DNA of 64,000 nt from positions 1,426,001 to 1,490,000 of the forward strand of contig NZ_CP101154.1 of the NCBI RefSeq assembly GCF_024298905.1, in the 5' to 3' direction. Positions 56,090 through 59,806 of the stretch are shown here, in pieces. Below the pieces are notes generated by a model. That model did no database searches. It was not told the DNA's origin and saw only the letters and a program-made list of their open reading frames with translations. The stretch comes from Natronomonas marina (GTDB taxonomy: Archaea; Halobacteriota; Halobacteria; Halobacteriales; Haloarculaceae). The translations under genes and the position numbers were made by a program. Every line of letters begins with the position of its first letter. Position 1 is the first letter of the stretch.

Positions 56090-57214
56090 ATGAATCGCGA
56101 GCGGCTGTGGTTGCTTCTGCCGTCGCCGGTCCGGAATCTGCCGGCCGACCTGGCCGCGGTGCTCGCACTCGTCGTTTTGACGAATCTGACCGTCTTCCTG
56201 CCGGTGGTCAACGACTCGCCCGTTCGCGTCGTCGTCGGGCTTGCCTTCGTGCTGTTCGTGCCCGGCTATGCCTTCATCGCCGCCCTCTTCCCGGAGGAAG
56301 GGACGTCGCCGGATGCTGAGGCGGCCGCCGATGAAGCGGCCTCCGAGACGAACGGTGGCGACGGCCTGCAGGATCGCGGTATCGACGGCATCGAGCGGAC
56401 TGCCCTCTCCTTTGGGCTCTCGATCGCGATCGTCCCGCTCATCGGGCTAGCGTTGAACTTCACGCCTTTCGGCATCCGATTGGTCCCGATCCTGGTCAGT
56501 ATCAGTGCCTTCACCGTCATCGCAACGGGCGTAGCGGCCCAGCGACGGTGGCAGTTGCCCGACGACGAACGGTTTCGGGTTCCGTATCGGTCGTGGCTGG
56601 GTGCCGGGAAATCCGAGCTGTTCGCGCCGGACTCGACGGCCGACGCCGCGCTGAACGTCCTGCTCGTCCTGTCGATTCTGCTGGCGACCTCGAGTGTCGT
56701 CTATGCCGTCGCCGTACCCCAACAGGGCGAACAGTTCACCGAGTTCTACGTCCTGACCGAAAACGAGACCGGTGATCTGGTCGCCGACGACTACCCCGAG
56801 GAGCTGGTTGCGGACCAGCCGCAGTCCGTCCACGTCGGCGTCGGGAACAACGAATATGAGACCGTCGAGTACACGGTGGTGGTCCAGCTGCAGGCGGTCG
56901 AAATCCGGGAACGGCAGACGCCGCTCGCCAATCAGACGCAGGTGGACGCACAGGCGAACGGGACACGGTTGGTTGTCACCGACCGTACGGAACTGGATCG
57001 TTTCTCGACGACGGTCCCACACAACGAAAGCGACATTCGCAACCGGACGCTCGTCGTCGATTCCGAGACGGCGACCCAGTTCAGCGGGTCCGACCGGCGC
57101 GTCAAGTTCCTGCTGTACCGCGACGGGGTCCCGGCCCAGCCGACGGCTGACAACGCCTACCGGGACCTGCACCTGTGGGTCGAGGTGCGAGCCGACGACC
57201 AATCGAACGCGTAA
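56090..57214 (+). CDS. DUF1616 membrane protein
   Basis: A 374-aa protein. Four TM segments in the N-terminal half (VLALVVLTNLTVFLPVV; VVVGLAFVLFVPGYAFIAAL; LSFGLSIAIVPLIGLALNF; IRLVPILVSISAFTVIA) and a fifth at ~205 (ALNVLLVLSILLATSSVV), then an extracytoplasmic beta-domain with TEFYVLTENETG. This is the DUF1616 layout. The typical PGYAF motif is present. Copy A of a 353-bp duplication begins 4 bp before its stop. Confidence 0.82.
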   Translation: MNRERLWLLLPSPVRNLPADLAAVLALVVLTNLTVFLPVVNDSPVRVVVGLAFVLFVPGYAFIAALFPEEGTSPDAEAAADEAASETNGGDGLQDRGIDGIERTALSFGLSIAIVPLIGLALNFTPFGIRLVPILVSISAFTVIATGVAAQRRWQLPDDERFRVPYRSWLGAGKSELFAPDSTADAALNVLLVLSILLATSSVVYAVAVPQQGEQFTEFYVLTENETGDLVADDYPEELVADQPQSVHVGVGNNEYETVEYTVVVQLQAVEIRERQTPLANQTQVDAQANGTRLVVTDRTELDRFSTTVPHNESDIRNRTLVVDSETATQFSGSDRRVKFLLYRDGVPAQPTADNAYRDLHLWVEVRADDQSNA

Positions 57215-57563
57215 GCGGCTGTCGAGCTTCGGTCGGCCGAAGCTGGTAACTTGCTTCGAGTAGCCAAAAACTGTGTTCTGAGGCTCGGTCAACCTGGGTC
57301 AAACGCGAGTATACACCGTCCACCCGACAGCGACGATCGCAACTATAGCGCCGATGGCTGTCGGACCGATGCCACCGGCCCCGTCGAACGACCACCCGAA
57401 ATATAGGTAGCCGACGATTGCGACGAGCGCCACAGCTGCTCCGAGAACTTTCATCGCCAGGGAGTCCGAGCTGCCAGCTCCAGGCATACGTCTCTCCACA
57501 GTTTCGATACTGAAAGAAACCTCGGATGACCCACCGGTACTCGGCTGCTGTCGTTTCTTCCAT
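57211..57563. repeat. 353-bp direct repeat, copy A
   Basis: Begins GTAAGCGGCTGTCGAGC and ends TCGTTTCTTCCAT. It matches copy B (58608-58961) with about a dozen substitutions and one indel, near 97% identity. The first bases coincide with the stop region of the DUF1616 gene. Each copy carries a small membrane-protein frame on the minus strand. Confidence 0.9.
57299..57499 (-). CDS. Small membrane protein in repeat copy A (66 aa)
   Basis: A GTG-started frame: ERRMPGAGSSDSLAMKVLG, then one long TM run AAVALVAIVGYLYFGWSFDG and a second GPTAIGAIVAIVAVGWTVY. Copy B encodes a 73-aa version with the same sequence and a few substitutions. In this copy the longer N-terminus lost its GTG (GTT). Most substitutions are silent or conservative, which suggests it is a real gene. 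Unknown function. Confidence 0.6.
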   Translation of the reverse strand: MERRMPGAGSSDSLAMKVLGAAVALVAIVGYLYFGWSFDGAGGIGPTAIGAIVAIVAVGWTVYTRV

Positions 57564-57732
57564 CCAGAAGACGGCGAAGGCGGTAGTCTGCGCTCTGTCG
57601 TGCGATTCCAGGCTCATCAGCGACCTCGGTGGTACCGGCGGGCTCGTTCTCCGCTACCGCTTCGATCACCTCTTCGTCGGTGTACTCTGGCTCGAATTGC
57701 CCGCCCTCGTTCCGTTCCCGGTCGCCACCCAT
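57451..57732 (-). CDS. Winged-helix protein, C-terminus probably disrupted at repeat junction
   Basis: A 93-aa frame whose first ~55 residues (EGGQFEPEYTDEEVIEAVAE, then GTTEVADEPGIARQSADYRL) look like the small HTH proteins common in haloarchaeal mobile elements. After RRLLDG the frame enters repeat copy A (from 57563) and the sequence no longer resembles the usual wing. It is likely a gene truncated or fused by the duplication event. Confidence 0.5.
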   Translation of the reverse strand: MGGDRERNEGGQFEPEYTDEEVIEAVAENEPAGTTEVADEPGIARQSADYRLRRLLDGRNDSSRVPVGHPRFLSVSKLWRDVCLELAARTPWR

Positions 57733-57744
57733 TGGTCAGAAAAC

Positions 57745-57772
57745 AGACTATCGGGACTTGAACCCTCTGTCT
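57745..57772 (-). other. tRNA T-arm-like fragment
   Basis: On the minus strand the string GGGTTCAAGTCCC matches the T-loop consensus (GGTTCAAxTCC) and lies inside AGAC...GTCT arms. No anticodon or acceptor arm can be built upstream, so it is not a tRNA. It may be the residue of a tRNA 3' end or an attachment site, or it is chance. Confidence 0.25.
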
Positions 57773-57815
57773 CCGAGCAGATGGCTGCCAGAAGTCAACT
57801 ACAAAAAAGCCGCGC

Positions 57816-57926
57816 TCAGGCGTCGGAGTCGTCGGAGTCGCCGGTTTCCTGCTCCACCAGATCGCGTACCCGGTCGAAGTGGCTGCTGATGCGCTCGGGC
57901 ATCGACTCGAACTCTTCGTCGCTCAC
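57816..57926 (-). CDS. Very small acidic protein (36 aa) at the end of a three-gene unit
   Basis: GTG 57926 overlaps the stop of the preceding gene (GTGA). The frame reads SDEEFESMPERISSHFDRVR then DLVEQETGDSDDSDA: one amphipathic helix with an acidic tail. An in-frame ATG at 57956 would give 46 aa. The overlap favours the GTG start. Function unknown. Confidence 0.45.
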   Translation of the reverse strand: MSDEEFESMPERISSHFDRVRDLVEQETGDSDDSDA

Positions 57927-58297
57927 AGGTCGCTCCTGTCTTTCACTCCGTGCCATTTTTCGAACCTCTTGATGAATCCTTCGACGTTCTCGCGTAAATC
58001 TTCTTCGGCGGCATCGAAGCCGTCGTTCCCCGGGATCGGCGGTGAGACCTCTTCCGACCGGATTTTCTCACCGTCTCGGTAGGTGTCTCGATGCAGGCCT
58101 TCCTCGGTGATGTCGTGGCCACCGGCTGCGTCGCGGTCGTGATCGTAGCGGACGACCTCACGCCAGTCGCCCTCCAGCCAGTATTCCAGCTGCACCAGGA
58201 ACTTCGTCACGGTACCGCGCTCCGTCGAGAACGCTGTGCGAAGTTGCACGCGGTCGGCCAGACGATCCGGCGGGGGCGTGACCTCGTAGTCTTTCAT
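57923..58297 (-). CDS. Small protein of a three-gene unit (124 aa), unknown
   Basis: A 124-aa protein with PPPDRLADRVQLRTAFSTER, VTKFLVQLEYWLEGDWREVV and RYDHDRDAAGGHDITEEGLH. Similar proteins (given as DUF7718, by recollection) are common in haloarchaeal accessory DNA and look like a single alpha/beta fold with a Trp-rich strand pair. It overlaps both neighbours (ATGA upstream, GTGA downstream). A TA-like role is plausible but not shown. Confidence 0.6.
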   Translation of the reverse strand: MKDYEVTPPPDRLADRVQLRTAFSTERGTVTKFLVQLEYWLEGDWREVVRYDHDRDAAGGHDITEEGLHRDTYRDGEKIRSEEVSPPIPGNDGFDAAEEDLRENVEGFIKRFEKWHGVKDRSDL

Positions 58298-58509
58298 TCA
58301 CACACGGCCTCTCGAAGCTCCCGGTACAACTTGGGGTGGTGTTCTTCCAGAATCTCTGCATCTTTCTCAAGTTCACCAATCCGTTGCCGCACGCGGGAAG
58401 CCGATTCATATCGCTTGCTGTCTGATACATCCACTTGTCTGCTGATCCGTTCCCTGTCCGTCTCTGTCATGATTGCTGTGACGCCCATACCGCCATTCGA
58501 TGGTGGCAT
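58294..58509 (-). CDS. Small helical, antitoxin-like protein (71 aa), first gene of the unit
   Basis: A 71-aa frame: TETDRERISRQVDVSDSKRY, then SRVRQRIGELEKDAEILEEH and HPKLYRELREAVCE, a long charged helix pair. Later Met starts exist (58470, giving 58 aa). A TATA-like ATATAAC box lies ~21 nt upstream of 58509. The small size, charge and coupling are typical of an antitoxin-like partner, which is inference. Confidence 0.55.
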   Translation of the reverse strand: MPPSNGGMGVTAIMTETDRERISRQVDVSDSKRYESASRVRQRIGELEKDAEILEEHHPKLYRELREAVCE

Positions 58510-58607
58510 ACAACTTGGACATTGCGTTATATCGCCATAAAAGTTAGCTCATAACACCACATTAGTTTATACTCTAACCTTTATTGCCACGGCGATATAT
58601 GTATCTG

Positions 58608-58961
58608 GTAAGCGGCTGTCGAGCTTCGGTCGGCCGAAGCTGGTAACTTGCCTTCGAGTAGCCAAAAACTGTGTTCTGAGGCTCGGTCAACCTGGGTCAA
58701 ACGCGAGTATACACCGTCCACCCGACAGCGACGATTGCAACTGTCGCGCCGATGGCTGTCGGACCGATGCCATCGGCCCCGTCGAACGACCAACCGAAAT
58801 ACAGGTAGCCGACGATTGCGACGAGCGCCACGGCTACCCCGAGAACTTTCATCGCCAGGGAGTCCGAGCTGCCAGCTCCAGGCATACGTCTCTCTACAGT
58901 TTCGATACTGAAAGACACCTCGGATGACCCACCGGTACTCGGCTGCTGTCGTTTCTTCCAT
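58608..58961. repeat. 354-bp direct repeat, copy B
   Basis: Near-identical to copy A (57211-57563); the same start GTAAGCGGCTG and end TCTTCCAT. The distance between starts is 1397 bp, enclosing a 1044-bp cassette (57564-58607). Differences are scattered, so the duplication is recent but not fresh. Confidence 0.9.
58697..58918 (-). CDS. Small membrane protein in repeat copy B (73 aa)
   Basis: A GTG-started frame SFSIETVERRMPGAGSSDS, then TM runs KVLGVAVALVAIVGYLYFGW and GPTAIGATVAIVAVGWTVY. Paralogue of the 66-aa frame in copy A, with a longer N-terminus. Seven or so residue changes over 62 shared positions, several of them conservative. Unknown function. Confidence 0.6.
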   Translation of the reverse strand: MSFSIETVERRMPGAGSSDSLAMKVLGVAVALVAIVGYLYFGWSFDGADGIGPTAIGATVAIVAVGWTVYTRV

Positions 58962-59063: not shown

Positions 59064-59089
59064 GTACTACTAACGATGGCGAGTAGTAC
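59064..59089. promoter_or_regulatory. Inverted repeat at the start of the AbrB/VapC pair
   Basis: GTACTACT (59064-59071) and AGTAGTAC (59082-59089) form a perfect 8-bp inverted repeat with a 10-bp spacer that spans the ATG at 59076. A TATA-like TTAGTAATA lies ~27-34 nt before the start. Binding by the AbrB-like antitoxin there would block leaderless initiation. Confidence 0.6.
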
Positions 59090-59372
59090 TAACGAACCGA
59101 GAGTAGTGCGCGTGTCTCGGAAGGGCCAGGCAACGATCCCAAAGCCGTTGCGCGAGAAGTTCGGGATCGAGACGCCGGGAGAGGTGTTTATTTACGAAGA
59201 GCAGGGGCGGATCATCGTCGAGCCAGTACCGTCCCCGGACGAACTGCATGGAATCCACTCCGGAGAGCACGAACACGGTGACGTACTGGAGAAGGCTCGT
59301 GAGATGAAAGATGAAGAACAGCGCAAGGAAGCAGAGCGAACTGAACGGCTACGTCCGACCGAGGACACATGA
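59076..59372 (+). CDS. vapB: AbrB/MazE-type antitoxin
   Basis: A 98-aa protein with a swapped-hairpin AbrB domain at the N-terminus: RVVRVSRKGQATIPKPLREK then FGIETPGEVFIYEEQGRIIV, followed by a flexible helical tail that would bind the toxin (HGDVLEKAREMKDEEQRKEA). The ATGA overlap with the PIN gene marks a VapBC-type pair. An inverted repeat spans its start codon. Confidence 0.85.
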   Translation: MASSTNEPRVVRVSRKGQATIPKPLREKFGIETPGEVFIYEEQGRIIVEPVPSPDELHGIHSGEHEHGDVLEKAREMKDEEQRKEAERTERLRPTEDT

Positions 59373-59806
59373 GCAGCGGGTACGTATTCGATACGGAAGC
59401 GATCATCGCCTTTCTGTACAACGAACCTGGCCACGAGGTCGTCGCCGATATTCTTGACGAGGTCTTCACTGGCAGCAGTGACGGCTTCCTGACCGAGGCG
59501 AATGCGAGTGAGGTGTTCTATCTCGTCGCCCGCTTCGAGGGCGTCGATGACACGCCGACGGACGCCTCGCTGCGGGACGCTGACCGGGACGTTCGTGCAC
59601 TTGCACGACAGGGTTTGAGCATCGAATCGGCTGACTGGCGGTTGGCAGCAGAAGTGAAAGCCGATGGGGGCATCTCCCTTGCCGACGCGTACGCGGTTGC
59701 GCTCGCTCACGAACGTGAGGCGACCCTCGTCGCCGGCGCCGCCGACGACTTCGAGGACCTCTCTATCGGGGTCGATCTGCACCGATTCCGAAATCACGGT
59801 GCGTAG
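59369..59806 (+). CDS. vapC: PIN-domain toxin (VapC)
   Basis: A 145-aa PIN-domain ribonuclease. The first acidic residue is in YVFDTEAIIAFL (Asp8), the middle Glu in LTEANASEVFYLV, and the later acidic cluster in GGISLADAYAVALA and VAGAADDFEDL. All are in the usual places for VapC. It cleaves RNA, and is held by the antitoxin encoded upstream. Confidence 0.88.
   Translation: MSSGYVFDTEAIIAFLYNEPGHEVVADILDEVFTGSSDGFLTEANASEVFYLVARFEGVDDTPTDASLRDADRDVRALARQGLSIESADWRLAAEVKADGGISLADAYAVALAHEREATLVAGAADDFEDLSIGVDLHRFRNHGA

Follow-up and report, generated by a model that had tools for sequence, protein, structure and literature searches.

A plasmid-type gene cassette between duplicated host segments in the Natronomonas marina chromosome: probable capture by microhomology

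The stretch analyzed here, called the window, is 64 kb of the 3.85 Mb chromosome of Natronomonas marina (G000:C1:1426001-1490000), and all coordinates are positions within it unless otherwise given. It contains a 1044-bp cassette of small genes enclosed by two direct copies, R1 and R2, of a host segment of about 353 bp. Judged by its relatives, the cassette is foreign and comes from a plasmid-type haloarchaeal locus. It was probably introduced as a linear plasmid-type fragment that was joined into the chromosome by microhomology, with duplication of the 353-bp target. On balance, the arrangement is best regarded as a well-resolved case of foreign-DNA capture with target duplication, not as a mobile element.

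Structure of the repeats and the cassette

R1 (57211-57563, 353 bp) and R2 (58608-58961, 354 bp) align end to end with 96.6% identity, 11 substitutions and 1 indel. An earlier note, made from the sequence alone, had described direct repeats of about 97% identity at these positions, each with one small membrane-protein frame, and both descriptions hold. Since the sole other direct repeat of at least 100 bp in the window is one pair with 70% identity, the similarity of R1 and R2 is far above chance, and since the two copies differ, an assembly error is excluded. Each copy carries an intact gene of 62 codons on the minus strand, M1 (57299-57487, with the start set by homologues) and M2 (58697-58885). 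R1 starts with GTAAG, which holds the stop codon of the neighboring DUF1616 gene, while R2 is continuous with host sequence on its right. Between the converging DUF1616 and M genes, a hairpin, AGCTTCGG-TCGG-CCGAAGCT, was read from the sequence at 57226-57245 in R1 and at 58623-58642 in R2.

The cassette occupies exactly 57564-58607, the 1044 bp between the repeats that the earlier note had delimited, and all its genes are on the minus strand. Its three-gene operon of small proteins was likewise recognized correctly: gene A (58294-58509), the first gene, encodes a coiled protein of 71 aa; the DUF7718 gene (57923-58297) encodes 124 aa and matches PF24839 with an E-value of 6.6e-31 and a score of 106.7 bits (gathering cut-off 25); and gene C (57816-57956) encodes an acidic protein of 46 aa, the stops and starts of the three genes overlapping. 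The start of gene C overlaps DUF7718 by 34 nt, and the two genes are neighbors in at least 8 loci. Distant haloarchaea have nearly the same DNA in this overlap, as would be expected where two reading frames are both under constraint. Next to R1 lies the 5' part of a winged helix-turn-helix (wHTH) gene (57564-57732, minus strand), cut at R1, whose frame continues as a chimeric tail that ends at 57451, within R1. The remnant corresponds to the first 56 codons of a gene that is complete in Haloferax sulfurifontis (L101:6569-6799, 76 aa), in agreement with the truncation noticed before. No second copy of the cassette was found in the same genome.

A string resembling a tRNA T-arm, also reported in the earlier note, is present at about 57750-57766, but it was not recognized as part of a tRNA by ARAGORN or Rfam. 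A tRNA or att remnant at the end of an element was considered and rejected. The string is internal to the cassette, and since Haloferax has the same string directly before its intact wHTH gene, it is not a remnant of an integration site.

Origin of the cassette

Haloferax sulfurifontis matches the window from 57561 to 58610 and nothing beyond, the cassette being 93.5% identical to L101:5685-6740, and its locus lacks R. The order there is csm3/csf-like genes, gene A, DUF7718, gene C, complete wHTH gene and a DDE transposase gene (618 aa); the csm3/csf-like genes lie beyond a conserved intergenic stretch, on the side opposite to the transposase. In the Halobacterium plasmids pHSAL1 and pSTJ001, the neighbors are the same, with gene A directly before the DDE transposase and with DUF7718, gene C and wHTH absent. 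These plasmids and further genomes match 58298-58612; the sequence beyond is common among themselves but not shared with the window. Extending the search to the wider order returned the same Haloferax-type copy (L131, identical in sequence to L101) plus many partial copies.

Since the donor relatives extend past both cassette ends, the cassette represents only part of a larger plasmid-type locus. In the window, one end falls inside the wHTH gene and the other in the conserved intergenic region, while the remaining cassette copies end at different positions (57997, 58104, 58062 and so on). Independent truncated copies, reduced to gene C and the DUF7718 tail and starting at various points, were seen in G017, G007, G123 and a Natrononativus plasmid. 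No R was found at any donor locus.

Two other sources were considered and rejected. Viral carriage found no support, with no match for DUF7718 or M in viral contigs and none in phages. A donor within the same genome was sought as well, and only a csm3/csf-like cluster at C1:2248378-2251279 was found, which lacks the cassette; its DNA is about 65% similar to the csm3/csf-like genes beside gene A in Haloferax sulfurifontis and the Halobacterium plasmids.

Some further copies were recorded. In Natronomonas sp. LN261 (scaffold26, 1-530; L084), the DUF7718 tail and gene C follow sequence from the csm3/csf side with the intervening part missing; judged from this order, it is a further broken copy of the donor locus. 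A contig of 55,136 bp (G070:C4) carries the DUF7718 region three times at a spacing of 16.35 kb, which suggests a plasmid multimer or an assembly concatemer. At four loci from Halobacterium plasmids, Haloferax and Salinarchaeum (L110, L113, L101 and L103), gene A and the DDE transposase gene are divergent from csm3/csf-like RAMP genes. That a transposase is linked here to a CRISPR-effector-like cluster may merit separate study.

The host target site

To the left of the insertion, the DUF1616 membrane protein gene (56090-57214, plus strand; PF07760, E-value 8.7e-113) is intact and has orthologues in Natronomonas genomes. Its relatives stop a few residues past the same LWVxV motif; since the stop codon inside R1 is thus natural, the left side of R1 represents the original arrangement. 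To the right of R2, outside the insertion, there is an AbrB/PIN (VapBC-type) pair (59076-59806, plus strand; PF04014 and PF01850), similar pairs being found on haloarchaeal plasmids. The outer flanks, left of R1 and right of R2, read as an uninterrupted host locus, and neither DUF1616 nor M is broken. The simplest ancestral order would be DUF1616, a single R and VapBC, as reconstructed from the present sequence.

R was absent from all 19 other Natronomonas genomes searched; the situation that the earlier note had named as refuting its reading, with repeats and cassette in all relatives, was therefore not observed. Neither the R-cassette-R arrangement nor an empty site was found in the genomes searched, which comprised one genome per species. 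A direct comparison with an empty site beside DUF1616 in other Natronomonas was tried and abandoned, the sequence after the stop codon being unrelated and not shared. Homologues of M are present in 25 of 146 genomes of the family, with its own genome counted, and a third M gene in the same genome (C1:664438) encodes a protein 58% identical. None was detected on plasmids by tblastn.

Joints and proposed mechanism

Both joints show short microhomology. At the left joint (57561-57563), the right end of R and the donor wHTH gene share 3 bp, CAT/ATG; on the minus strand, donor CTTCTGG-ATG-ACG meets host CCGT-ATG-GAAG. At the right joint (58608-58612), the shared sequence is GTAAG, with GTAAGAAGCGCGG in seven donor relatives and GTAAGCGGCTG in the target. 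The nine aligned donor relatives all have CTGGTA(A/G)GAAGC or CTAGTAAGAAGC here and are still alike beyond this point, while the window reads CTGGTAAG and thereafter R sequence; the host sequence at the DUF1616 end is GAACGC-GTAAG-CGGCTG. Seven donor relatives share 5 bp at this joint; the other two, among them Haloferax, which reads GTAGG, share 3 bp. For random joints between these sequences, at least 3 shared bases are expected in about 6% of cases and at least 5 in about 0.7%, which gives jointly about 0.04-0.4%.

Since the donor meets the right end of R at the left joint and the opposite end of R, 353 bp further upstream, at the right joint, either R was copied twice or chromosome copies were joined at staggered points. 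In the proposed mechanism, the donor fragment would have been joined non-homologously, at short microhomologies, between DUF1616 and the VapBC-type pair. Read from left to right, synthesis or joining would run through DUF1616 and R, switch at CAT into the donor wHTH gene and stay on the donor for some 1 kb. On reaching GTAAG, it would return to the same five bases where DUF1616 ends, now on a second chromosome copy, and R would thereby be copied a second time. One event would suffice: the template could be switched at microhomology, or two chromosome copies could be linked by microhomology end joining. After capture, the wHTH gene would have remained broken, and gene A-DUF7718-gene C, M1 and M2 would have remained intact. 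We infer the order of the switches and the single-event nature from the breakpoints.

Haloferax volcanii is polyploid and lacks Ku, and its cut plasmids are repaired mainly by microhomology end joining with matches of 3-5 bp (PMC2700283). In human genomes, replicative template switching is held responsible for insertions that show microhomology together with small copy-number gains in their flanks (PMC5120786). By analogy, a template-switch reaction of this kind may run in archaea too.

Three points weigh against capture with target duplication in one event. No empty-site genome was found in the one-per-species set, and the pre-insertion state is thus a reconstruction. The joints carry just 3-5 bp, which is weak evidence when each is taken singly. 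Finally, most differences between R1 and R2 are at synonymous positions in M, a pattern not predicted by a simple clock that starts from a single duplication unless gene conversion or constrained flanks are assumed as well. Nine of the 11 substitutions are inside M (57338-57440 versus 58736-58838), six of them synonymous, and the noncoding parts are nearly identical; only two fall outside M although M makes up about half of R (binomial p of 0.07). Gene conversion or constraint on the flanks may be the cause of this uneven spread. At amino-acid positions 16 and 47 (start methionine not counted), M1 is closer than M2 to the homologues.

Alternative explanations

The alternative that survives best, though it is unlikely, is the integration of a circle, by Campbell-type recombination between the only R of the chromosome and a circular molecule that already had both R and the cassette. 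It yields exactly the observed R-cassette-R geometry, would be easy in haloarchaea, and makes the 3.4% difference between R1 and R2 immediate if the incoming R came from another strain. However, no plasmid or donor locus with R was found, and the first joining of R and cassette is merely shifted to another molecule, where two microhomology joints are still required.

A two-step origin, proposed in the earlier note as tandem duplication with later insertion, is improbable. Here R, or a longer stretch, would first have been duplicated in tandem, and the cassette would have entered between the two copies afterwards, by insertion or exchange. Duplication and a foreign cassette are both present, but the cassette would have had to land exactly at the joint of the copies, or a further deletion would be needed. 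Tandem gene duplicates do flank distant DUF7718 genes in G003, G016, G123 and G067, which could favor such an order of events; these repeats, however, are duplicates of neighboring genes with 81-93% identity, lie in gene arrays and are unrelated to R. A recurrent long duplication at DUF7718 insertions was rejected on the same grounds. A single event of insertion plus duplication is preferred over two steps because it explains both joints, each with 3-5 shared bases.

Transposition, with the cassette as a transposon and R as a very long target-site duplication, is mostly refuted and highly improbable. The donor locus does have a DDE transposase next to gene A, and direct repeats do flank the insertion. 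Nevertheless, neither the donor locus nor the cassette has terminal inverted repeats, the left cassette end falls within the wHTH gene of the donor, whose locus runs on past the right end. The other copies start and stop elsewhere, with no common ends, and the truncated DUF7718/gene C fragments in G017, G007 and Natrononativus lack long flanking repeats. We know of no transposase that makes a target duplication of hundreds of bp.

That R1 and R2 are independent M-gene loci homogenized by gene conversion is equally implausible: M paralogues exist, as at C1:664438, and the differences are unevenly spread, but the identity covers noncoding sequence and stops exactly at the cassette joint at one end of each copy.

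Age and consequences of the capture

Between M1 and M2 there are 6 synonymous and 3 amino-acid changes, which gives a synonymous divergence (dS) of about 0.12 and a nonsynonymous divergence (dN) of about 0.02. The cassette genes (DUF7718, gene A and HTH) have dS of 0.16-0.26 against Haloferax, and DUF1616 has 0.70 against the nearest genus mate tested (G009). By these values, the capture is not recent: it is old within the species and younger than the genus, a rough estimate from six synonymous changes only.

M1 now follows the incoming operon as its last gene, in the same orientation, while M2 retains the host sequence upstream. Loss of the cassette with one repeat is plausible, given 353 bp at 96.6% identity for homologous recombination.

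Putative function of the cassette genes

The structural model of DUF7718 (pLDDT, the predicted local distance difference test, of 94) shows six strands of at least 3 residues, a short helix and a long C-terminal helix; no PDB or viral fold matched it at E ≤ 0.001. In three genomes (G126, G133 and G074; L076-L078), a domain similar to gene C is fused to the C-terminus of DUF7718. A wHTH relative of the truncated cassette gene is located just upstream of the fused gene at L077, a placement that may be another sign that these genes work together.

The run RYDH...H..EGLH in DUF7718 resembles RYDN...HH.H of haloarchaeal TumE toxins from the same family of genomes. Like TumE-TumA (DUF6516), it is a small alpha/beta protein with an RYD(N/H)...H..H run beside a small partner gene, found on plasmids and in regions rich in toxin-antitoxin systems, with partner fusion in some members. 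The two differ in that none of 22 DUF7718 members matched Pfam TumE (PF20126) at E up to 5, and hhalign gave a probability of 1.4%, which is not significant. DUF7718 was therefore rejected as a TumE toxin, and a toxin-antitoxin role for DUF7718 and gene C may serve as a lead by analogy, not as a finding.

Significance and comparison with known systems

If captured as proposed, this would be a case at base resolution, with a donor relative known, of a foreign gene group entering an archaeal chromosome without integrase, transposase, long homology or gene breakage. It also cautions against taking every cassette between long direct repeats for a mobile element. It is a far more speculative proposal, and a doubtful one, that polyploid haloarchaea routinely stitch plasmid fragments into their chromosomes by template switching between genome copies, with hundreds of bases of target duplicated and the interrupted genes thereby spared. 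If true, many "composite elements" and gene pairs between host repeats would be footprints of such horizontal transfer; the interest of the capture is limited unless such footprints prove common.

Composite transposons and cassettes flanked by insertion sequences also place genes between direct repeats, and to this extent the composite unit suggested in the earlier note is right in form. It differs in nature: R is a host segment with a small membrane-protein gene, the unit lacks a transposase and inverted ends, and both ends of the cassette correspond to points within the donor locus. Microhomology-mediated end joining in Haloferax volcanii is similar in being Ku-independent, with matches of 3-5 bp in a polyploid haloarchaeon, but what it is reported to yield is deletions in plasmids and not insertions that duplicate their target (PMC2700283). 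There is also a likeness with template switching of the microhomology-mediated break-induced replication or fork stalling and template switching type (MMBIR/FoSTeS). The complex human insertions described (PMC5120786) share breakpoint microhomology, a foreign segment inserted and the adjacent target duplicated; those descriptions are eukaryotic, whereas here the chromosome is archaeal and the mechanism is deduced from the breakpoints.

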